A stretch of 33,499 nt of DNA, taken from the NCBI GenBank assembly GCA_007695295.1, contig REEB01000163.1:1-33499 (forward strand), in the 5' to 3' direction. The notes beneath the pieces were generated by a model that saw only the letters and a program-made list of their open reading frames with translations, ran no database searches and had not been told where the DNA came from. Below are positions 19-19,019 of the stretch, piece by piece (positions within the stretch are counted from its first letter, which is position 1; the number at the start of each line of letters is the position of its first letter). The position numbers were made by a program, and so were the translations under genes. Source of the stretch: Puniceicoccaceae bacterium (GTDB taxonomy: Bacteria > Verrucomicrobiota > Verrucomicrobiia > Opitutales > Opitutaceae).

Positions 19-146
19 CCCCGCGGTCGCGGGGCGGGTGGGTAAGGGGTGAGGGTCCGCCTTCGCCGCAAGCGGACTACGGCGTGACAGTCCTCGCTCC
101 ATGTGAGAAGGCTGGAGGACTGCCGTCTTACGACGTCGGCTACGGG
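19..146. repeat. Composite palindromic intergenic repeat, copy A
   Basis: Seen directly: this block is repeated at 18053-18225. It has three shared modules. The first is a hairpin at 19-34 (CCCCGCGGTCGCGGGG). The second is a 38-base module at 53-90 that matches 18121-18158 at 36 of 38 positions and contains TCCGC/GCGGA arms. The third is a 40-base module at 107-146 that matches 18185-18225 apart from one inserted G and two T/C changes. Copy A lacks the GGGAGCATCTTGCTCCC hairpin present in copy B. No reading frame is needed to explain it. It behaves like a REP/MITE-type dispersed element, but I cannot see a transposase or name the family. Confidence 0.8.
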
Positions 147-4847: not shown

Positions 4848-4936
4848 ATAGGCCCGGCCGAGACCGCGCGGGAGGCGGGGCGCGGAGGTCGGAGACCGGA
4901 AGGCCGGAGGATTCCGTGGTCTCTGGATCAGCAAGG

Positions 4937-4975
4937 TAGCGGGAGCGTCTTGCTCCCATGCGTGCGGGATCCCGC
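4937..4975. repeat. Partial palindromic repeat, copy C (two hairpins)
   Basis: Bases 4939-4957 read GCGGGAGCGTCTTGCTCCC. This is the same element as the hairpin at 18087-18107 with one A-to-G change, which keeps a G-U pair in RNA. A second perfect palindrome, GCGGGATCCCGC, sits at 4964-4975. The pair lies between the convergent genes ending at 4847 and 4992, where hairpins could act as a bidirectional terminator; this is positional inference, since no T-tract follows. Confidence 0.7.
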
Positions 4976-6273: not shown

Positions 6274-9200
6274 ATGCCCGTAACACGTTTTGTCACCGGG
6301 GCGGAAGGGACAGGGAAAACCACCCTCCTTCCGCTGCTTCGCAAGCGATTGCCAGGGTGGGCGATCCATGACTTTGACGAAGTCGGTGTTCCTGATGCAC
6401 CGACCGCAGAATGGCGCCGGACAACAACGGGGCACTGGCTGGGTGTTGCACTGGACAATCAGCGCAAAGGAATTTCGACCTGCATTGTGGGATTGATCTA
6501 TCCCAGTGAGGCCAAAGCCTTTCCCGCTCACCGTGAGCTGGCGCCAAGCTACTGTATCCTGGAGTTGGATACAGCCGAACGGGCCAAACGCTTGCGGGAA
6601 AGAAATACGCCGCATCACATCGATTCGCCCTGTGTGGGTGAATTACAGCAGGAGTTTGCTATGCCCGATCCCGCCCTGCATCGCATCGACGTCACGGGCT
6701 TTGATCCCGAGACCGCCGGCGAAGCGGTGGCCGCGTGGGCGAATGGGACACTCACCGAGGCCGCTTCTCGTCGCCAGTCCTGGTTGTTTGTCACCCACGA
6801 GGCGAGTCTGACCGGAGCACCCATGTTTCTGCTCCACTTCCTGCGCTGGCTGCGGGCAAACACGGATTTGGATCTCAGGCTCTATAGTGTGAAGGATGGT
6901 CCCTTGCTCAAAGCCTTCGGTGAAGTGGCCCGGGTGCACCCGATGGGCGATGAAGCAGGCCTGGTCCGTCTAGCCGCGTCCTGCGACTTGGTCTATATCA
7001 ACACCATCTGTGCGGCGAATCTCGGACACCGGCTGGCCGGACCGGGGATTCCACTGGTGACTCACGTGCACGAGTTGGATGTGGCCTACGAGAATTTTGG
7101 GCCACGATGGATGGCTTTGATGCTGCAGCAGAGCCGTCGACTGGTGTGCTGTTCGGAGTTCGTGGCGGAGCGGATGCGGATGCGCTACGGGGTGGCGGCG
7201 GAACGCCTGACCGTGGCGGCGGAGATGATCGACACCAGGAAGCTGCGGGTGAGGCGGGAGGCGAGAGAAAAACCTCCGCCGGAACTGGCCGCATTTCCCC
7301 AGGGGACGCGGTTTGTGATGGGCTGCGGATCGCGTGATGTACGCAAGGGCTTTGATCTCTTTTTGCAGGTGGCGGTGGCTTTGCGCGGGCAATGGAGTGC
7401 GGTCGATCCGGTGCGCTTTGTTTGGATCGGGAAAGAATTTTCAGACGCCTATGCCACCAACATGCGGCTGGACATCGGCAAAGCGGGGCTGGCCGGAGAT
7501 TTCATTTGCATTGCGGAGACGGATGATCCGCACCGTTACCTCAAGCGGGCCGACGTTTTCTGCCTTACTTCGCGGGAAGATCCCTATCCGCTCGCCATGT
7601 TGGAGGCGGCGGCCTTGGGCAAGCCCATCGTGGCCTTTGCCGGGGCGGGTGGCGGCGAACACTTTTGCGGGCAGGGGGCTGGGCTGGTGGTTCCGTATTT
7701 GGATGTCTATGGCATGGCGGCTGCCTGCGGTGTGCTGCTTGAAGACGAGGAACGTCGCCAGAGCTTGGGCCGTCGTGCAGAGGAGCTGGCCCGGGAGCGG
7801 CATGCGATCGACGTAGTTTCCCGCGGACTACACAGGCAGCTAATGGGGATGATGGAGGGCGGCCTCGGCCGGCAACCCTTGGAGTCATTGGAAACGGTTG
7901 TCGAGCGGTGGAGTCGGGAAGAAAATCCCCGCGGCACACAATATCGAGAGTCGATTCGCCGGCGCCGGCATCTTCGATCGAAGGTAGGGGAACTGCTGCA
8001 GCGGGGAAACACTGCTGCGGTGCAGCATGCGGTGGTGGATGTACTCAACCAAGTCATGGATGCGGGTGATGCCGATGCCATCATCGAGACTTTGGTGGAA
8101 GCTTCCGAGGTGTTGCAGGCGGTGCTGCCCGAACAGGCGGGGGCGTTGCTGGAGCGGGCCAAGGGTATGGCCACGGCGAGACTTCGTGAAGTGGACTTTT
8201 ATCGTGACACCCCGGCAGTGGAACCCGGGCGGACTCAAAGAGAACGGAAGGTTGAAGCCGTCACCAAGGAGATTGCTCCGGCGATGTCCGCCACTCCCGG
8301 ATTGGAGGGGAAGCGCGTGTTGGTATTTTCCGACGATCCCGGGCAGGGCGGGGTGGCGCAGTATGTGCACGGGGTGCTGCTCGGGTTGCGGGCGGCGGGG
8401 GTGGAGGCGGTTTGCGCCCAGCCGGAAGCGGAAAACCCTCTCGTGGAGGCGCAGCGGGCCGCCGGGGTGAGGCATGTCTGGACCGGTTTCAATCCCGAGG
8501 AGGACTTCACCCGCTCCTTCAGCGACGGGGAGGATGCGGTGCGCATCCTTGATGCGGTCGAGCCCGAGGTGGTGTTGTTTGCGGACTGCTGTCCGCTCTC
8601 CCACCTCGCGGCCAAGCAGGCCGTGATCGACCGGCTGATCCCTTGGGTGGCGACCTGCAACGTCGATGCGCCCTATTTGGCGAAGAAGTTTCCCGAGGCG
8701 TTGCCGGTGGCGAAGCGGCAGTATGGCTGTGCGTCCGAGGTGATCGGCGTCTCGCGGTCGGTGCTGGAGACCCTGCGGACAACCTACGGCCTGGAGACGG
8801 AGCGGGGCCGGGTCGTCTATTACGGCCGGCCGGACTTGTATTTTAAAACTCAGGACAAAGCGGCCCGGATGCGCCTGCGAAAAGAGCTGGCGCTGGGGGC
8901 GGACGCGGTGCTCTGCCTGACCGCCGCCCGGCTGGCGCCGGACAAAGGCCACCTTTACCAAATCGAGGCGGTCCGCCGGCTCCGGGAGAAGGGCCGCCTG
9001 GGCAACCTGCACCTTGCCTGGGCGGGTGACGGTCCGCTGCGCGAGGAACTGCAAAAGGCCATCGAGGCCAACGGCCTCGGCGACCGCATCCACCTGCTCG
9101 GCCATCGCTGGGATCTGCCGGACTGGCTTTCGGCGGCGGATGTCTTCGTGCTATCGTCGCGGGTGGAGGCGATGCCGCTGAGCATCATGGAGGCGATGGC

Positions 9201-12200
9201 GATGGGCCTGCCGGTTGCAGCGACGGCGGTGGCGGGCGTCCCCGAGGAACTCGGCGAGACCGGAGCGCTATTGCCTGACCCGAAAATTGACCCCGCCGAG
9301 ACCGTCCGCGCCCTGGCCGATGTATTGGATAAGTGGGGACGTAATGAGAAGCAGCGGCGGACTGTCGGCGCCGCCGCCCGGGAGCGGGCGGAGCGGCTCT
9401 TCCGTGAAGAGCGGATGCAGTCCGAAACCCTTGCCATCCTGACAGAGGCCACCCGGGAGCGCGTGGCGGAGCGGGCGGCGCGCAAACTCAACGCCTTGGT
9501 GCGCGATGGAGAAATCCTGCCGGCCCTGGCGCGCTACCGGGAAAACCTCGAAACCGCGGTGGAGCCGGAGGCGGGCGAAACCCTGCCCGTATTCGCGGCC
9601 GAGGAGCTGGCTTCGATCCGGCAGGTGGCGGCGGCGTGGAAGGAGAATCCCGGCGATACGGCTGCGGCGGCGCAACTCCGCGAGCTGCGCAACCAGATGG
9701 CGGTCTTTCTTGCCGGCACCGAGGAGCGCCTCACTCCGGCGCTTTTCGCCGGCAATTTTGGGGAGGTTTACCGGGAGCTGATTCGAAGCGGCATCCAAGA
9801 TGAAGACCTTACCGCCGAGGAAGCGGAGGCTGCGGCGCAAGTGGCGGCGGGTTTTGACACCGAGGGGAACTTTTCGCTGGCCCGGCTGATGGCCTCGCTG
9901 CTCTTCCGCCGGGCTTGGCAGGAGCCCGCCTTGCTGGCCTTTGAACTAATCCCTTCTTGGTTTGGCGAACTCTATTTCGAGGCCTTGTTGCACGCGCCCG
10001 CGTTGTTTGACCAGCCCGGGGATGCTGAGCGCTATCGACGGCGGCTGGCGGAGGTGACCCGGGAAATCCACCGCCGCATCCAGGTGGAAGAACCGGATGG
10101 GATGGCGGCGGAAGCGGCCCTGACCTTCTTGCGGCGCGCCAACTTCATGCCGCTCTATTTCACGGAGGCCCCCTGCGCCGAGCTGCACCGCCTGCGGGCG
10201 GAGATCATGGCCTGGCGGCTTGGCTACGATGGATTCGACCTCGCCGGCCCGCCGCAGGCGGCGCGGGCACGGTCGGCCGGCGGCAAGATCCGGCTCGGCA
10301 TCCTCTCGGCGCATTTCGGTCCTCAGACCGAGACCTACACCGTCATCCCGCTCTTTGCCGAACTCGACCGCCGCCGTTTCGAAGTGGTGCTGATCGCGCT
10401 CCAGAAAACGGATACACCACTGGAGCGGTTTTGCCGGGAGCGGGCCGACCGTTTTATCGTCCTTGATGGTCGTCTGCCGGAGCAGGTGAACGCGGTGCGG
10501 GCGGCGGCGCTCGACGCCCTTGTCATCGGCACCAACGTAACCGCGGTGACCAATGACATCAGCCTGCTGGCCCTGCACCGCCTGGCGCCGGTGCAGATCT
10601 GCTCGAACTCCTCGCCGGTCAGCACCGGCATGGCGCAGATCGACGCCTACCTCTCGGGAACGCTGAGTGAAGCGGAAGCGGAGGAAGCGCGCGGGCACTA
10701 CACCGAAGCGCTGTGTCTGCCAGAGGGACCGGCCCATTGCTTTGCCTACGGGGCGGATGCGCGCCCGGCGGAGATCAGTGTTTCCCGGGCCGAGCTCGGA
10801 CTTCCGGAAGATGCGGTCGTCTTCGCGAGCGCGGCCAATTGCTTCAAGCTCCTGCCGGAGCTGCAGGAGACCTGGGCGCGGATCCTTGCCGCGGTGCCCG
10901 GATCGCGGCTGCTGCTGCATCCCTTCAATCCCAACTGGAGCAACCGGTATCCGGTTTTCCACTTCGCGCGGGCGGTGCGGGCGGCCATGCGAAGGCACGG
11001 GGTGGAGGAGGACCGACTGATCCTTTCGGAGAGCCGCCTGCCCGGCCGTGAAGACGTGAAAGCCCTGCTGGCGGTGGCGGATGTATACCTCGATTCCTAT
11101 CCCTTTGCGGGGGTTAACTCGACGGTCGATCCCCTCGAGCTGGGGCTGCCCTGCGTGGTGCGGGAAGGAAGGACCTTCCGCTCGCGCATGGCGGGGGCGC
11201 TGCTGCGGGACCTCGGTTTGGAGGATCTCATCGTCACCGAAGAGGACGCCTACATCGAACAGGCGGTGCGGCTCGGCCGGGAGCCGGCCTTCCGCGGCGA
11301 AGTGAGCGCGCGGATCCGGAAGGCGATGGCCGCCGGCCCGCGTTTCTTCGACACCGCCGGCTATGCCGGGCGTTTTGCGGCGGTGGTGGAGGTGCTGGTG
11401 CGGGGACGGCCCGAACCGGGACCGGAGCGGAAGGAAACGGCCCCGTCGCAGGCAATCGAAGTCGCGGACGAGGACTTGCTGGCGCGGGCGACGGCGGCGT
11501 ATGCGGATGGCCGCTACGAAGAGACAGAAACCCTCTGCCGTGAATTGGTGGAGCGGTCTCCGGAGACGGCGCCTGCCTGGGCTCTTCTGGGGCGGCTGGC
11601 CCGGCGTTTTGGCGATTACAATTTCGCGGCCGAACTCCTGGAGCAGGCCCTGGCCTTGGATGCCGCGCCCGAAGAAAGTTGGGTGGCATTGGGCGAAGTG
11701 CGCCTGGCACAAGCGGCTTGGAGCGAAGCACTGGAAGCCTTTGCCGCCGCGCTGGATCGGGATCCCGGGCGGAGCGATGCCGTGCACGGCCGGGCCCTGG
11801 CGCTCTGGCGGAGCGGCGACACCCCATCGGCGGAAACCGCCTTCCGCGAAGGACTGGCTTCGTCCTGCGACCGGGCGGAAGCGGCGCGGCTGCGGATGAG
11901 TTATGCCGCCTTTCTCCATGAGCGGGGGCAGGTGCCCGAAGCGATCCGGCAACTCCGCAAGGCGGCCACGGCGGAACGGGAATCCGCCGAGCCATGGGTG
12001 CTGCTGGGACGCTGGCTGCGGGAAAGCGGCAACCCTGGTGACGCTCTCGCCAGCCTCAACCGCGGATTGAAGAAATTTCCCGAGGCCGGGGGTCTCTGGC
12101 TGGAGGCGGGCAAAGTTCTTTTGCTTGATGGGCGCGCGCGGGAAGCGGTCGACCGTTTGCGGCGGGCGGCCGAGCTGATGCCGGACGATGGAGAGACGTA

Positions 12201-13851
12201 TTTTAATCTCGGATACGCCCTGCAGCAGACCGGGCGACGCGGCGAAGCGCTGGAGGCCTATCGCAAGGCGGAGGCCGGTGGTTGGGAGGCGGCTGAACTG
12301 CACCTCAACCTCGGAGTGTTGCTGAAGGACCGGGAGGAATTCATGGAAGCGGCCCGGTCTTTCGGGCGGGCGTTGGCCTTGAAGCCGGATTCCGTGGCCG
12401 CCTACAACAACCTCGGCGCCGTCTGCAGCCAGCTCGGCATGATCAGCGATGCGATCGACTGCTTCGGCAAGGCCTTGGAGCTGGAGCCGGCCATGCCCGG
12501 AGCACTCAACAACCTCGGGCAGTTGCTGAAAAACACCGGCCGGGCCGGGGAGGCGCTGCCCTGCTACCGCCGGGCGGTGGAAGCGGATCCCGGTCAGCTT
12601 GGTGCAATCCAGAACCAACTGCTCTGCACCTTGTATCAGACCGACCTCACGCCGCAGGCCATTTTCGAGGCTCACCGGCACTGGGGCGCGGTGGTGGCCG
12701 ACGCCGCGCCGCGGTGGCGGCGGCAGGCGCGCTCGCCGCGGTCCGGCCGGCGCCTGCGCATCGGCTACCTCAGCCCTGACTTCTGCGCCCATCCCGTGGC
12801 GGCCTTTGCGGAGGCGCTCTTGGCGGGGCATGACCGGGACCACTTCGAAATCCATGCCTACGCCGATGTGCTGCGGCCGGATGAAACCACCGGGCGCCTG
12901 TGCGGCTGCGTCGAGCATTGGCACGAAGTGGCCGAGTGGAGCGATGAGCAACTTGCGGAGCGGATCGAGCGCGATGGCATCGACCTGCTCATCGATCTCG
13001 CCGGGCACACCGCCCGCAATCGGTTGCAAGTCCTGGCGGCCCGGCCCGCGCCTGTGACACTGACCGCACTCGGCTATCCGGCGACCACCGGCGTGCCCGG
13101 GATTGATTACCGCCTGACCGATGCCGAAGCGGATCCCGAAGGCGAGGCCGACGCCCGGCACACCGAGCGGCTGCTGCGGCTGCCGCGGACCGCCTGGTGC
13201 TGGCGTCCCCCCGGGCAGAGTCCGCTTCCGGCGCCGGCACCGTGCGAGAAAAATGGATACATAACCTTCGGCTCATTCAACAACCTGGCCAAGATGAATG
13301 CGGCGCTTCTGGAGACATGGGCCGAATTCCTGCGAACGGTGCCGGATTCGCGGCTGCTCCTGAAGGCGCGCCCCCTCCTCGATGAAGGCGTGAGGCGGCG
13401 GTTCGAGAGCTTTTTCACCGCGCGGGGGATTGCGTCGGAACGCCTGCGGCTGGTTGGGCCGGATGCGGGGGTGGAGGCCCATTTGGCGCGCTACCACGAA
13501 GTCGACATCGCCCTGGACACCTTTCCCTACCACGGCACGACCACAACCTGTGAGGCGCTTTGGATGGGTGTGCCGGTGGTGACGCGGGCTGGGGAGGATC
13601 ATCGCTCGCGGGTCGGGGTGAGTTTGCTGAAAGCGGTGGGGCGGCCGGAGTGGATCGCCGATGATGCCGCGACGTGGGTGCGGCGGGTGGCGGAAATGGC
13701 CGGGGATAGCTCCGCCTTGTCGGCCGTCCGCGCGGGCCTGCGCGAGGACCTGCGGCGGAGTCCGCTGCTGGATGTGGCGGGCTATGTCGCGGCGGTGGAA
13801 GCCGCCTTTGGTTCGATCCTCGAACCCGCGCTGAGCGGGGTGGAGCGGTAG
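6274..13851 (+). CDS. Giant multi-domain glycosyltransferase: P-loop kinase-like + GT4 + GT4 + GT41 + 11 TPR + GT41
   Basis: A 2525-residue single open frame. Domains in order: (1) residues 1-165, a small P-loop kinase-like domain with Walker A GAEGTGKT at 9-16. (2) About 170-530, a GT4 transferase starting FVTHEASLTGAP, with REDPYPLAMLE ending at Glu444. (3) About 680-1057, a second GT4 with SDDPGQGGVAQY, ARLAPDKGH and the E-x7-E pair Glu965/Glu973. (4) About 1060-1335 helical, then 1338-1707 a GT41/SPINDLY-type domain of the variant class (SAHFGPQTETY, LDSYPFAGVNST). (5) About 1730-2108, eleven TPRs. (6) About 2160-2520, a canonical-type GT41 domain with SPDFCAHP (His2173), FGSFNNLAKMN (Lys2340), DTFPYHGTTTT (2415-2424) and EDHRSRVG. 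No signal peptide or membrane helix is seen, so it should be cytosolic. It probably builds glycans on a protein or carrier; the acceptor is unknown. Glycosyltransferase families are certain, specificities are not. Confidence 0.9.
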   Translation: MPVTRFVTGAEGTGKTTLLPLLRKRLPGWAIHDFDEVGVPDAPTAEWRRTTTGHWLGVALDNQRKGISTCIVGLIYPSEAKAFPAHRELAPSYCILELDTAERAKRLRERNTPHHIDSPCVGELQQEFAMPDPALHRIDVTGFDPETAGEAVAAWANGTLTEAASRRQSWLFVTHEASLTGAPMFLLHFLRWLRANTDLDLRLYSVKDGPLLKAFGEVARVHPMGDEAGLVRLAASCDLVYINTICAANLGHRLAGPGIPLVTHVHELDVAYENFGPRWMALMLQQSRRLVCCSEFVAERMRMRYGVAAERLTVAAEMIDTRKLRVRREAREKPPPELAAFPQGTRFVMGCGSRDVRKGFDLFLQVAVALRGQWSAVDPVRFVWIGKEFSDAYATNMRLDIGKAGLAGDFICIAETDDPHRYLKRADVFCLTSREDPYPLAMLEAAALGKPIVAFAGAGGGEHFCGQGAGLVVPYLDVYGMAAACGVLLEDEERRQSLGRRAEELARERHAIDVVSRGLHRQLMGMMEGGLGRQPLESLETVVERWSREENPRGTQYRESIRRRRHLRSKVGELLQRGNTAAVQHAVVDVLNQVMDAGDADAIIETLVEASEVLQAVLPEQAGALLERAKGMATARLREVDFYRDTPAVEPGRTQRERKVEAVTKEIAPAMSATPGLEGKRVLVFSDDPGQGGVAQYVHGVLLGLRAAGVEAVCAQPEAENPLVEAQRAAGVRHVWTGFNPEEDFTRSFSDGEDAVRILDAVEPEVVLFADCCPLSHLAAKQAVIDRLIPWVATCNVDAPYLAKKFPEALPVAKRQYGCASEVIGVSRSVLETLRTTYGLETERGRVVYYGRPDLYFKTQDKAARMRLRKELALGADAVLCLTAARLAPDKGHLYQIEAVRRLREKGRLGNLHLAWAGDGPLREELQKAIEANGLGDRIHLLGHRWDLPDWLSAADVFVLSSRVEAMPLSIMEAMAMGLPVAATAVAGVPEELGETGALLPDPKIDPAETVRALADVLDKWGRNEKQRRTVGAAARERAERLFREERMQSETLAILTEATRERVAERAARKLNALVRDGEILPALARYRENLETAVEPEAGETLPVFAAEELASIRQVAAAWKENPGDTAAAAQLRELRNQMAVFLAGTEERLTPALFAGNFGEVYRELIRSGIQDEDLTAEEAEAAAQVAAGFDTEGNFSLARLMASLLFRRAWQEPALLAFELIPSWFGELYFEALLHAPALFDQPGDAERYRRRLAEVTREIHRRIQVEEPDGMAAEAALTFLRRANFMPLYFTEAPCAELHRLRAEIMAWRLGYDGFDLAGPPQAARARSAGGKIRLGILSAHFGPQTETYTVIPLFAELDRRRFEVVLIALQKTDTPLERFCRERADRFIVLDGRLPEQVNAVRAAALDALVIGTNVTAVTNDISLLALHRLAPVQICSNSSPVSTGMAQIDAYLSGTLSEAEAEEARGHYTEALCLPEGPAHCFAYGADARPAEISVSRAELGLPEDAVVFASAANCFKLLPELQETWARILAAVPGSRLLLHPFNPNWSNRYPVFHFARAVRAAMRRHGVEEDRLILSESRLPGREDVKALLAVADVYLDSYPFAGVNSTVDPLELGLPCVVREGRTFRSRMAGALLRDLGLEDLIVTEEDAYIEQAVRLGREPAFRGEVSARIRKAMAAGPRFFDTAGYAGRFAAVVEVLVRGRPEPGPERKETAPSQAIEVADEDLLARATAAYADGRYEETETLCRELVERSPETAPAWALLGRLARRFGDYNFAAELLEQALALDAAPEESWVALGEVRLAQAAWSEALEAFAAALDRDPGRSDAVHGRALALWRSGDTPSAETAFREGLASSCDRAEAARLRMSYAAFLHERGQVPEAIRQLRKAATAERESAEPWVLLGRWLRESGNPGDALASLNRGLKKFPEAGGLWLEAGKVLLLDGRAREAVDRLRRAAELMPDDGETYFNLGYALQQTGRRGEALEAYRKAEAGGWEAAELHLNLGVLLKDREEFMEAARSFGRALALKPDSVAAYNNLGAVCSQLGMISDAIDCFGKALELEPAMPGALNNLGQLLKNTGRAGEALPCYRRAVEADPGQLGAIQNQLLCTLYQTDLTPQAIFEAHRHWGAVVADAAPRWRRQARSPRSGRRLRIGYLSPDFCAHPVAAFAEALLAGHDRDHFEIHAYADVLRPDETTGRLCGCVEHWHEVAEWSDEQLAERIERDGIDLLIDLAGHTARNRLQVLAARPAPVTLTALGYPATTGVPGIDYRLTDAEADPEGEADARHTERLLRLPRTAWCWRPPGQSPLPAPAPCEKNGYITFGSFNNLAKMNAALLETWAEFLRTVPDSRLLLKARPLLDEGVRRRFESFFTARGIASERLRLVGPDAGVEAHLARYHEVDIALDTFPYHGTTTTCEALWMGVPVVTRAGEDHRSRVGVSLLKAVGRPEWIADDAATWVRRVAEMAGDSSALSAVRAGLREDLRRSPLLDVAGYVAAVEAAFGSILEPALSGVER

Positions 13852-14891: not shown

Positions 14892-16400
14892 TCAGTAAAC
14901 CGCCTCTGCGAGGAGGGCGAGGAGATCCTTTTCGTCCATCCTCTCCTGCTTCATGGAATCGCGGTGGCGGACGGTGAAAGAGCCATTTTCGAGGGAGTCG
15001 AAATCGTAGGTCACGCAGAAAGGGGTGCCGATCTCGTCCATCCGGCGGTAGCGGCGGCCGATCGCCCCGGAAGTGTCCCAAAAAGCCGGATACCGGCGGC
15101 GGATGCGGTCGTAGAGGCCGCGGGCGGCTTCGACCAGCTCGGGCTTGTTTTTGACGAGGGGGAAGACGGCGACCTTGACCGGGGCGATCCGCGGGCTGAA
15201 GCGGAGCACGACGCGGGTTTCGCCCTCGACCTCCTCCTCGGCGTAGGCGGCGGTGAGGAGGGCGAGAAAGATGCGGTCCACGCCGACGCTCGGTTCGATC
15301 ACGTGCGGGATGTATTTGGATTTCCGTGACTCGTCGAAATACTCCATCGACCGGCCGCTGTGCTCCTGGTGCTGGCGGAGGTCGTAATCGCCGCGGGCGG
15401 CGATGCCCTGGAGCTCCTGGACGCCGAAAGGGTAGCGGAAAGTGATGTCGGTGCAGGCGCGGGCGTAGTGGGCGAGTTTTTCCTTCGGGTGGAGATCCTC
15501 CCCGAGCATTTCCCGGGGCAATCCGATGGAGAGAAACCAGTCCATGCAGGCATCGATCCACTCGCGGTGGTGGCGGGGCCAGGCGTCCTCATCGGGCGGG
15601 ATGAAGTATTCGATCTCCATCTGCTCGAACTCGCGGGAGCGGAAGATGAAATTGCGCGGGTTGATTTCGTTGCGGAAAGCCTTGCCGACCTGGGCGATGC
15701 CGAAGGGGACCTTGACCCGGCCGGTGTCGACGACGTTGCGGAAATTGATGAAAATGCCTTGGGCGGTTTCCGGGCGAAGGTAGGCGACGGCGGAGTCATC
15801 CCGGAGGGCGCCGACGTAGGTCTGGAACATCATGTTGAACGAGCGCGGGGGGGTGAGGGAGCCGGGCTCGCCGGTGGCAGGGGAGGGGATGAGAGGGATG
15901 GCCTCGGCGGGTGCCTCGGTGAAGTCGCGGATGGCGAGCGGGGCGAGGGTGCCGCGGGCGGCTTTTTTGCGTTTCAGCTCTTCGGCCTTGGCATGGAGGC
16001 TGGCGGCGGTGTCTTCGCTTTCGAGGTCGCTGACGTAGCCGATGGTCTCGCCCTCGACGACGACCGGGGCGAAGAAAAGCTGGTCGGCGCGGAAGCGTTG
16101 TTTGGAGACCTTGCAGTCGACGAGCGGGTCGGTGAAGTTGTCGACGTGGCCGGAGGCCTTCCAGGTGGAGGGGTGGTGGATGATGGTGGAGTCGAGGCCG
16201 ACGACATCGTCGCGGCGCTGGACGAAGTCCCGCCACCAGGCGTCCTTAATGTTGCGGCGCATCTCCGCGCCGAGGGGACCGTAGTCGAAAAAGCCGTTGA
16301 TGCCGCCGTAGATCTCCGAGGACGGGAAGATGAAGCCCCTGCGTTTGCAGAGGCCCACGAGCGTTTCCATGAAAGAGGCGGAGTCACGGGTGTCAGCCAT
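14892..16400 (-). CDS. glyQS: Glycyl-tRNA synthetase, single-chain dimeric type
   Basis: This class II aminoacyl-tRNA synthetase charges tRNA-Gly. It is the alpha2 single-polypeptide type, not the alpha2beta2 type with separate glyQ and glyS. The N-terminus [19 protein letters not shown] (residues 20-38) and YGPLG are diagnostic. The sequence also shows [11 protein letters not shown], the class II motif 2 region [10 protein letters not shown] with [11 protein letters not shown], and motif 3 [14 protein letters not shown]. The C-terminal anticodon-binding domain starts near [12 protein letters not shown]. Length is 502 residues from the ATG at 16400; the open frame extends 13 codons further but lacks family similarity. 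It lies 35 bases downstream of an AT-rich membrane-protein gene on the same strand. Confidence 0.95.
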
Positions 16401-16435
16401 AAGGGCCGATCTTGTGGGGCAAGAGCGGGCGGGGG

Positions 16436-17791
16436 TCAATCCCGGGGTTGAAACTGGTTGGGCACTGGGGCAGAGTCCTCTTCCCTGAATGCGCTCAAGC
16501 CGTGCGATTTCAGATGGTCGAGGCGAGAAATGATGGCTTCCGGTTTGGGATAAATTTCATAGCCAGAATCTCGGGTGGCTTGAACAACATTTTCCGTGGA
16601 CCGGTATGCCTCAAGCCAGCTTTCTTTGGCCGCCTTCCTGCTAAGGGCGAGATCCGATGCGTAGAAAACGTTGGAGGCATAGGACAAGGCCGCCAGGATA
16701 AGGAAGATGGCCAGTCGTGGGGTTTTCCATCGGCACGATCGGGATTGGGACAAGATTAGGTGGAGGGTCAAAATTGCTGGCAGAGCAAGGGATAAATAGC
16801 GGGATGAACCTCCCGTGTTTACGCCGAGGGAGACTCGGCCAAAGGAATTGGCGATAATGAATCCGAAGGAAGTTGCCAAAAAAAGGAGGATGATTGAGTC
16901 AATAGCATTTAGATCTTTGGTTGCATGGATTGCTGTTCGCAGCAGGACCGCAAGCAGGCAAAGCAGAATTGTAAAGCCAATGTAGGGTCGGATTGGACTT
17001 GGCAGGTAGAAAAGCCTACCAAAGAGGTAGTGGATGAACACCACATAATCGTGGATGGGAAGATGGGGAAACCGAACGTCCGGATTGGCGGGATCCCATT
17101 GGTACTCAATGCTGAATATGACCGAACCAAAGCAGAAAAAAGCCAGACCGAAGGTTCTCCAGCATGTGTCCTGGTGGTTGCGCTTCCAAATCGAAAAAAT
17201 CCAATCATAAACGTAAATGAATAAAGCCCCGGTGAAAACAAAAAAACCAAACCCCGTAAACAAAGCAATTGTTGCCAACGCCGGAGCAGCGGCGTAACGC
17301 ACCATGGGGTGCTGGCTGATGTAGCAATGCGCGAAACACAACAACAGGAAAAGTGGCAGGATGCTGTGAGACAGGTTTGGAGTAACAGTAATCGTTTCGA
17401 TTTGGACCGGATTAAGAACAATGAGCGGAATGGCCGTGTCCCAGACCGTAATTTCGGATGTGAGCCGTTTTTTCAGCGCTACTGCCAAGATGGACGCCCC
17501 GACTAAAAAGACAGCGATCATGATCGATTCAATCCGATGCGAAAAGCCTGTGGCATTTGCAGTAAAATACGTTATAATTCCCCCCAGGCCTTGGCGATGC
17601 GGACCGTGTTGGTACATGAAGGCGTTGACTGGACCATCCTGATTAAACATAGGGGTGTAGAGATCCCACTGATCATGAAATAATATAGGGCCACTGAAAG
17701 CGGCTGCCTGATAAAATAAATGACAAGCCAAAACAGCCGTAAACAGGGAGACAATCTTGAGCGGTAAATGGGAGTGAGAAGAATATTTCAC
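16436..17791 (-). CDS. AT-rich polytopic membrane protein, possibly GT-C-like, unrecognised
   Basis: A 451-residue protein with roughly nine to eleven hydrophobic helices and a short polar C-terminal tail. After the first helix there is a luminal-looking loop [12 protein letters not shown] followed by [11 protein letters not shown]. An acidic residue in the first loop and a QHxxHR-type motif recall uncharacterised GT-C-fold membrane glycosyltransferase-like proteins, but this is weak inference. The start is GTG at 17791; no ATG gives a better N-terminus and no strong ribosome binding site is visible. The gene is clearly poorer in G+C than its neighbours (one 60-base line, 17221-17280, has 25 G/C) and its codons reflect that, suggesting recent transfer. 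No flanking transposase is visible. Confidence 0.75.
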
Positions 17792-17986: not shown

Positions 17987-18052
17987 ATCTGAGCATCCAT
18001 TCTAGAGCCAACTTTGGACTTAATGAAGGGATGGGCTGTGGGTTGTGAGTAA

Positions 18053-18225
18053 CCCCGCAGTCGCGGGGCAGGTGGGTGGGCTAAAGTAGCGGGAGCATCT
18101 TGCTCCCGTGCGGCGGGGTCGGGTCCGCCTTTGCCGCAAGCGGACTCCGGCGTGACAGCCTTCGCTCTCCGCGGAGCTCCGAGTGAAGGCTGGAGGGACC
18201 GCCGTCTCACGACGTCGGCTACGGG
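18053..18225. repeat. Composite palindromic intergenic repeat, copy B (fullest copy)
   Basis: A chain of successive inverted repeats: CCCCGCAGTCGCGGGG at 18053-18068; CGGGAGCATCTTGCTCCCG around 18090-18108 with eight-base perfect arms; TCCGC/GCGGA within 18121-18158; CCTTCGCTC (18159-18167) facing GAGTGAAGG (18181-18189); and GCCGTCTCACGACGTCGGC at 18201-18219. Three of the modules recur in order at 19-146, and the GGGAGC hairpin recurs at 4939-4957. The multi-hairpin design and intergenic placement fit a REP/MITE-like mobile or RNA-structured element; the family is not known to me. Confidence 0.8.
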
Positions 18226-18332
18226 GTGGTACCGGCCGGGGGGCAGGCGAAATTCGATAACGTGCCCGCGGTTGCGACGCAAGCGCGGGGCAGGCGGGAG
18301 CGTCAGGGGGAGCCGACTCCGGCCGGGCCGGA

Positions 18333-19019
18333 TCAGGACTCGGGCGATTTCGAGAGGAGCGGCTGGAGGGCGGGCCAGACGAGATCGGCGATGACGCGGT
18401 GGCCCTTGGGGGTGGGGTGCACGCCGTCGGGGAGGTTGAGGTCGGGATTTCCGCCGACGCCTTCGAGGAGAAAAGGCAGGAGGTCGACCTCATGATTGTG
18501 GGCGAGCTCGGGGAAAATGGCGGCGAAGTCGCGGGTAAAATCCGGGCCCATGTTAGGCGGGGCCTGCATGCCGGCGAGGAGGATGCGGGCCTCCGGATGG
18601 GTGGAGCGGACGCGCTCGATGATGCCCTCGAGATTGCGCCGGGTGACCTCGGGGGGGATGCCGCGGAGCCCGTCGTTGCCGCCGAGGGCGAGGACGAACA
18701 CCGCCACGGGCTGGCGGAGAATCCAGTCGACCCGCCGGAGGCCGGCGGCGGTGGTTTCGCCGCTGAGGCCGGCATTGATGACCCGGTGGGGCAGACCGGC
18801 GGCTTCGAGCCGCTCTTGGATGAGCGCGGGATAAGCCCGGTCGGGATCGATCCCGTAGCCGGCGGTCAGGCTGTCCCCGAAGAAGAGGACGGCCGGGGCC
18901 CGGGGATCGTCTGTCGCGGCCGGTGCGGCGAAGCCGGAGGCGGCGAGCGAGGCGAGCAGCCCGATGGCGGAGAACAAGCGGACGGTCAACTTGGCAAAGG
19001 TGAAGAAACGTGCTTCCAT
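18333..19019 (-). CDS. tesA: SGNH-family esterase/lysophospholipase (TesA-like)
   Basis: A 228-residue periplasmic hydrolase of the GDSL/SGNH family related to E. coli TesA (thioesterase I/protease I/lysophospholipase L1). A signal peptide covers about residues 1-32 and ends in ASGFAA. Block I is FFGDSLTAGYG with nucleophile Ser50; the Gly oxyanion block follows in INAGLSGETT; block III is GGNDGLRG; block V is DGVHPTPKGH with Asp198 and His201. All catalytic residues are present. It is divergent from the ybbA-ybbP homologues with 50 bases between start codons, the same neighbourhood as in E. coli, which supports the assignment. The start is the ATG at 19017-19019. Confidence 0.9.
   Translation of the reverse strand: MEARFFTFAKLTVRLFSAIGLLASLAASGFAAPAATDDPRAPAVLFFGDSLTAGYGIDPDRAYPALIQERLEAAGLPHRVINAGLSGETTAAGLRRVDWILRQPVAVFVLALGGNDGLRGIPPEVTRRNLEGIIERVRSTHPEARILLAGMQAPPNMGPDFTRDFAAIFPELAHNHEVDLLPFLLEGVGGNPDLNLPDGVHPTPKGHRVIADLVWPALQPLLSKSPES

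Follow-up and report, generated by a model that had tools for sequence, protein, structure and literature searches.

The cluster of palindromes at positions 18053-18225 of the window (copy B; the window is the whole stretch of 33,499 nucleotides that was analysed, and corresponds to C28, one of the 278 contigs that make up a genome of 4.6 Mb) is a mosaic of REPs whose parts come from different transposase systems. Its central part, M3-M4, is shown by comparison with other Verrucomicrobiota to be homologous to a two-hairpin element that, in nearly all of the loci examined, directly follows the CCA of a tRNA or tmRNA gene. Copy B is a member of a dispersed, BIME-like mosaic family in which the REPs M2 and FA have probably spread by way of their cognate Y1 transposases, and into which an M3-M4 block derived from stable-RNA tails has probably been joined. 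The assignment of parts of the mosaic to different transposase systems makes the question of who moves the mosaic a testable one. The tRNA-tail element, if confirmed, would be a structured element that touches the mature 3' ends of tRNA and tmRNA throughout the phylum, with a stem that includes bases of the CCA, and it would represent either an overlooked feature of stable-RNA maturation or a mobile element that targets tRNA genes.

Copy B had been described in the initial annotation as containing about five inverted repeats, and five palindromes, M1 to M5, can be read in the sequence. M1 (18053-18068, no strand assigned) is the palindrome CCCCGC-AGTC-GCGGGG and lacks a GTAG tag; its pattern, CCCCGC[AG]GTCGCGGGG, occurs nine times in a pool of 406 kb (described below). 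M2 (18086-18108, plus strand) is a REP composed of a GTAG tag and CGGGAGC-ATCTT-GCTCCCG, and M5 (18199-18222, minus strand) is likewise GTAG-tagged, with the hairpin CCGACGTC-GTGA-GACGGCGG. Between them lie M3 (about 18122-18155, minus strand), a hairpin whose tag reads GGAG here but GTAG in copy A and which was delimited from alignments of the copies in this genome and of tRNA-linked relatives, and M4 (18156-18192, minus strand), a long untagged hairpin; in relatives, the place of its outer arm, CAGCCTTC..GAAGGCTG, is taken by the CA of the terminal CCA of a tRNA together with the trailer. Viewed in the orientation of the tRNA, M3 of copy B takes the form TC(A)CGCC-GGAG-inner hairpin-CAAA-GGCGGA; a drawing of M3 as GTCCGC..GCGGAC was replaced by this outer-stem structure, which is seen in the tRNA-linked copies. 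The model R3 (see below) matches copy B at 18124-18192 on the minus strand. When positions 18040-18240 were folded as single-stranded DNA, an energy of -53.9 kcal/mol was obtained, as compared with a mean of -45.1 for shuffled sequences (z = -2.9), and this value was equalled in none of 200 shuffles. The cluster sits between two minus-strand ORFs, namely a 451-aa ORF without a Pfam match (16436-17791) and an ORF for a GDSL-type lipase (18333-19019). No match at the Rfam gathering score was found in the window.

A second cluster, copy A, spans positions 19-229 and shares modules with copy B, as had been claimed. It comprises M1 (19-34, no strand assigned), a degraded M3-M4 with a GTAG tag in its M3 part (56-114, minus strand; matched by R3 with E 5e-9 and by the model R1 at 54-122), and three M5 hairpins (120-143, 162-185, and 204-227, all on the minus strand) that belong to three tandem units of 42 bp. 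A block of 47 nt is common to the two copies and is 91% identical, and no M2 was called in copy A. The GGGAGC hairpin that had been reported to recur at 4939-4957 is a solitary M2 with two mismatches (4936-4958, plus strand). The suggestion that the family has at least three copies can be extended considerably, as copy B, used as a query, finds 61 matching places in the genome at E <= 0.001, a figure that includes copy B itself and in which some places are adjacent pieces; weak matches were obtained in 4 of 37 relatives. Counted as hairpins, there are 58 copies of M2 and 54 of M5 (each with up to two mismatches) and 22 of another REP, FA (up to three mismatches), for all of which the backward control pattern gave zero in this genome. 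When 60 further genomes from the family were scanned, M2 turned up in three (with 5, 3, and 5 copies, and none for the control pattern) and M5 in four (2, 1, 1, and 1 copies), the latter matches carrying little meaning because the control also occurs once each in two genomes. Several copies were seen near contig ends, which is to be expected since repeats break assemblies.

The order and orientation of the modules were surveyed for 39 M3 copies in a pool of 405,631 bases that was drawn from the surroundings of hits and of Y1 genes and from 15 contigs chosen by number; a scan of this pool for tags with a hairpin after them also revealed further GTAG families. M2 is found within 75 nt of M3 on one side in 20 of the 39 copies; the opposite side has M5 or FA no farther than 130 nt away in 29, and M4 comes immediately after M3 in 31 (three M4 were counted via the other strand, as M4 is palindromic). 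All 55 of the M2, M5, and FA neighbours of M3 that were counted have the same relative orientation, and M2 and the right-hand REP carry tags that face outwards. From left to right the order is M1, the GTAG-type REP M2, the M3-M4 unit, and a right-hand GTAG-type REP, this last slot being interchangeable and filled by M5 in copy B and by FA in other copies. The gap between M2 and M3 is 9-15 nt in 15 of the 20 copies, and in four copies FE, a GTAG repeat of 30 nt, stands between the two modules, with a gap of 41-47 nt. Modules are gained and lost between copies, as had been noticed from the two clusters in the window, and they are also exchanged, as at the right end.

The view that the cluster is REP-like is upheld by the GTAG-type tags, by the dozens of copies, and by the Y1 and RAYT-type genes that are flanked by FA or M2 hairpins; the search for a RAYT-type gene, which had been proposed as a check, yielded such a gene beside FA here and beside M2 in two relatives, and none beside M5 or M3-M4 in the loci searched. 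The genome contains 14 matches to Y1_Tnp (PF01797), some of them within one gene. One of the genes (C169:121-564) is IS200-like, and FA together with a GCACCCC..GGGGTGC palindrome lies inverted at both of its sides; the flanks are identical in 74 of 91 aligned columns and contain an exact FA block of 35 nt. A single continuous inverted repeat of 80 nt at this gene was considered and rejected, as the repeat is discontinuous. Three tandem FA units follow the gene and its inverted repeats (positions 1-1130 of that locus, L132). Outside this genome, FA-type hairpins occur at 4 of 29 orthologue loci of the FA-linked gene, namely on both sides at two loci of genome G063 (50% identity), upstream in G045 (61% identity), and downstream of a gene fragment in G107; they are absent from the flanking DNA examined at the other 25.

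M2-type hairpins flank RAYT-type Y1_Tnp genes in the relatives G022 and G166, mostly as head-to-head pairs, and in G165, which has three M2 hairpins, a RAYT-like match was found at none of the three loci examined. The gene on contig C198 of the present genome is 33-34% identical to the genes of G022 and G166 and has M2-like hairpins at distances of 0.6 and 1.3 kb. On C198, a RAYT-type gene (L141, 3700-4430) is flanked by long compound repeats made up of CCCCGGGAACGCGGGG and a hairpin with 16-bp arms, unlike M2-M5 or FA. Among the Y1_Tnp matches of this genome and the chosen loci of relatives there was no RAYT-like gene with flanks of M5 or M3-M4. As read, 12 of 20 chosen short RAYT-type loci have like GTAG, GGAG, or GTGG hairpins on both sides, none of them of the M5 or M3 type. 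GTAG hairpins at RAYT-type genes were seen at nine loci (L255, L261, L263, L264, L266, L267, L270, L273, and L277), with a stem that differs from gene to gene, and such variation between the genes of relatives points to many separate REP systems in the family. Six further loci (L135, L136, L138, L139, L140, and L142) encode paralogous R13-type Y1_Tnp proteins of about 323 aa, five of the six being 57-87% identical to the L136 copy; no repeat is shared by the two 400-bp flanks of these six paralogues. At C4:2417-2890 (L019/L020), two PF01797 matches fall within one ORF of 279 aa with the halves of the profile reversed, as if permuted or fused. With a gene for FA in this genome and genes for M2 in relatives, two or more distinct Y1 systems have contributed REPs to the composite, and ends drawn from two systems, as in the FA-type composites, are a poor fit with mobilisation of the whole as one unit by one enzyme.

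GTAG-tagged REP families and their RAYT 'REPtrons' have been described by Nunvar et al. (2010, PMC2817692), whose definition of RAYT is followed here, and by Di Nocera et al. (2013, PMC3733652). According to the latter article, GTAG repeats of several families are strongly enriched in the Verrucomicrobium Opitutus terrae, hybrid dimers of different GTAG families amount to about 10% in Stenotrophomonas maltophilia, and structured spacers between REPs are already known; M2 or M5 may equal one of the O. terrae families listed there. The present repeats resemble these systems in their GTAG-type tag and GC-rich hairpin, in their many copies, in the presence of several families per genome, and, for FA and M2, in a location by cognate Y1 genes, but they differ in that one ordered block is made up of members of unrelated families and in that M3-M4 belongs to a tRNA-tail element. 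In that article the word "tRNA" appears four times, in two passages on matters other than REPs at tRNA ends. M2 and M5, as tagged short palindromes with high copy numbers, are GTAG-type REPs, and the recurrent combination of REPs with other motifs in a set order is that of a BIME. An ordered block of four to five modules with one interchangeable end nevertheless sets the present family apart from the BIMEs and hybrid REP dimers that it otherwise resembles as a mosaic of REPs and other palindromes. The definition of the REPIN applied here is that of Bertels and Rainey (2011, PMC3116915), in which two copies of the same REP are inverted around a structured spacer; the mosaic shares inverted REPs and a structured spacer with REPINs, but its ends are M2 and either M5 or FA instead of two identical REPs, and two hairpins lie between them.

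The relationship of M3-M4 to stable-RNA genes emerged from three models, R1, R2, and R3, whose sets of loci overlap. R1 was built from 31 copies of this genome, including the tmRNA copy and a few flanking columns, and it matches 20 of 130 genomes of the family (this genome included), with 31 matches in other genomes; 25 of the 27 loci examined lie directly at a tRNA 3' end as called by ARAGORN, and the remaining two (L301 and L305) are preceded, as read, by a duplicate of a tRNA 3' end. Because R1 held the tmRNA copy and flanking sequence, R2 was built from 29 copies of this genome with both left out. It matches 28 of 273 genomes of the order, again counting this genome, with 56 matches in other genomes, and 24 of the 28 loci examined adjoin a tRNA or tmRNA, the latter in three cases. 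A duplicated or truncated tRNA end was read at three other R2 loci (L387, L395, and L408), and the weak match L406 (E 0.006) was set aside as unrelated. R3 is a model of 23 tRNA-linked sequences, among which is the tmRNA copy of this genome. At E <= 0.001 it finds matches in 98 of 387 genomes searched across the phylum, with this genome counted, and in 74 of 198 genera. Of 28 further loci outside this genome, 24 adjoin a tRNA or tmRNA, whereas L430, L434, L436, and L437 have tails that, as read, resemble tRNA 3' ends. Altogether 58 distinct elements, counted with a loose M4 hairpin rule (up to one mismatch, G-U allowed) and including the tmRNA element of this genome, are found behind 14 kinds of tRNA and tmRNA. 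In a sample from genome G184 the hairpin and motif were present at 5 of 26 tRNAs. In comparisons within and between genomes the tRNA-linked copies gave median similarities of 0.71, 0.71, and 0.70, and copies within a genome are no more alike than copies from different genomes, a result that does not separate movement from inheritance. The one RAYT-like match near the tRNA-linked copies examined was an R13-type gene in L415, at a distance of about 0.8 kb, and Rfam matches in 10 loci with M3-M4 were to tRNA and tmRNA alone. The element is apparently undescribed, in that no repeat fixed to tRNA 3' ends could be recognised in listings and the opening parts of abstracts of the open-access literature.

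Read from the tRNA, the element has the form ...C-CA-arm-loop-arm'-TG, followed by TC(a)CGCC-GTAG-inner hairpin-CGAA-GGCGGA. The first stem takes in the CA of the CCA, and its arms form pairs such as CAGCCTTCG/CGAAGGCTG, CATCCTTCG/CGAAGGATG, CACTTTTCG/CGAAAAGTG, and others. A sequence like CTACGGCTTGGCATGCC often comes after the second hairpin (26 of 58 elements by text pattern); in loci such as L411, L415, and L423 this module is placed about 10-40 nt past the hairpin, and in several loci the bases that precede it complement the loop of M4. For the analysis of covariation 25 elements were parsed, those with long loops or poor stems being left out, and the removal of L287 and L289 by hand left 23 tRNA-linked sequences, the tmRNA copy of this genome among them. 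In these, 95.4% of cells pair as compared with 87.0% in shuffles, and 11 pairs (34 cells) are changed on both sides as compared with 4.0; neither the share of paired cells nor the number of two-sided pairs was reached in any of 500 shuffles, and the number of further pair types was reached in six. This test is cleaner than one based on arm fitting, which kept 32 of 34 sequences (including two chance rows, L349 and L373) and is biased because arms were picked by best fit; in its refit control no mismatch was found in 26 of 31 own arms versus 104 of 636. Base complementarity lends moderate support to a contact at longer range that would join the M4 loop to sequence past M3, with at least seven complementary bases in 27 of 58 own pairs versus 494 of 3226 swapped pairs. 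The possibility raised earlier that the repeat is a structured RNA is therefore borne out in part, in that the two-hairpin structure of M3-M4 covaries in tRNA-linked relatives; no covariation was found among the M3-M4 copies of this genome, which are very alike.

This genome has 39 tRNA matches, and 30 stable-RNA tails (29 tRNA tails and that of tmRNA) were tested, none of which passes an exact-arm hairpin rule; the tmRNA tail, on contig C63, has a hairpin with one mismatch, and an M3-M4 copy adjoins the tmRNA. On C63 there is also an array in which tRNA-Ser is followed by two identical tandem units of 175 bp, each ending in the last 19 nt of the tRNA (57-494 of locus L145), and an M3-M4 copy (C63:493-563) lies behind a third copy of these 19 nt. 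A degraded M2-like stretch, uncalled by the M2 profile, follows this copy. The rtT repeats behind the E. coli tyrT gene are tandem repeats that carry the 3' end of the tRNA, and the tRNA-Ser array can be likened to them by description. At 28 of 30 copies checked in this genome a tRNA end is absent, the best identities over 20 nt being within the range of shuffled sequences, and copy B does not adjoin the CCA of a tRNA or tmRNA. We infer that the dispersed copies derive from a copy at a stable-RNA tail that was combined with REPs, the direction from tail to dispersed copies being drawn from the position of the element at tRNAs throughout the phylum.

Under the scenario favoured here, M2 and FA hairpins would have spread as single-stranded intermediates, with the GTAG tag cut by cognate Y1 transposases; an ancestral copy at a tRNA or tmRNA tail, of which one still adjoins tmRNA in this genome, would have come to lie beside M2, and the resulting M4-M3-M2 block would then have been dispersed, presumably by transposition, with M5 or FA as its neighbour. 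It is also possible, if somewhat doubtful, that movement of the mosaic as a whole does not occur, and that each REP inserts alone at a preferred site or recombination homogenises the copies, either of which would yield a fixed order. The exchangeable right end and the insertion of FE between M2 and M3 in four copies would suit such independent arrival, as would a Mantel test of module divergences within copies, which gave no correlation for eight pairs of modules (smallest p 0.17); however, the test has low power for modules of about 30 nt, a single burst would likewise leave the modules uncorrelated, and both the narrow spacing of M2 and M3 and the immediate succession of M3 and M4 speak for a joined block. 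That the palindromes are chance products of a GC-rich genome, or the remains of a decayed protein gene, is scarcely credible. Although ORFs in such a genome overlap on both strands mechanically, neither source would produce the copy numbers of M2, M5, and FA where the control gives zero, a fixed architecture, and homologues throughout the phylum; the decayed-gene origin that had been named as a way of refuting the initial annotation is excluded by those copy numbers.

The nature of the tRNA-tail element itself is a separate matter, and it may be a mobile element, an RNA element, or the remnant of an attachment site. Tentatively, M3-M4 can be seen as a mobile element of Verrucomicrobiota of about 70-110 nt, present throughout the phylum and at home where the CCA of tRNA and tmRNA genes ends, with a first hairpin built on the CA of the CCA and the trailer, a second hairpin with a GTAG/CGAA internal loop, and possibly a pseudoknot-like contact between the first loop and the third module; in this Opitutales lineage it would have abandoned that location, become fused to RAYT-borne REPs, and reached about 36 places. 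The best guess for its arrival at tRNA ends would be GTAG-dependent insertion of the Y1 type at a ...CCA end. The main alternative, which deserves consideration while falling short of being probable, is a function of the tRNA trailer as RNA, in which a 3' trailer hairpin pairs with the CA of the CCA and thereby influences how the 3' end is processed or decays; the dispersed copies would then be passengers or would have been reused as 3' structures of mRNAs. The strong covariation in the tRNA-linked copies, with some G-U pairs, is what such a role would predict, and the same can be said of the single position and orientation relative to the CCA over all the kinds of tRNA and tmRNA and of the excess of complementarity of the M4 loop to sequence past M3. 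Yet occupancy is patchy both in this genome, where none of 29 tRNA tails has exact arms and the tmRNA hairpin has a mismatch, and in the G184 sample; the GTAG or GGAG tag is typical of Y1 elements; and nearly all of the copies checked in this genome lie away from stable-RNA ends. It is unlikely, if worth consideration, that the M3-M4 copies at tRNAs mark the termini of integrative elements such as islands or satellites that attach at tRNA 3' ends, the 70 bp or so by the CCA being a conserved flank of attP. Duplicated or truncated tRNA 3' ends, read at L301, L305, L387, L395, L408, L434, and L436, the tandem array at tRNA-Ser, and the use of tmRNA as a target all point in this direction, whereas the covariation of the hairpin arms with the tRNA trailer would not be expected for a fixed attP.

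Some minor features of the window may be recorded. Within the GDSL-type lipase ORF, ARAGORN calls a tRNA-Arg (18768-18864) without a CCA end, which is probably false. A class-II tRNA-synthetase-like protein is encoded at 14892-16439, and among the 80 loci compared the closest are from Opitutales/Opitutia, with a top identity of 75%; the genome is accordingly taken to be a MAG of the Opitutales (Verrucomicrobiota). A large ORF at 6274-13851 encodes 2525 aa and combines glycosyltransferase domains of the GT4 and GT41 types with TPR domains.
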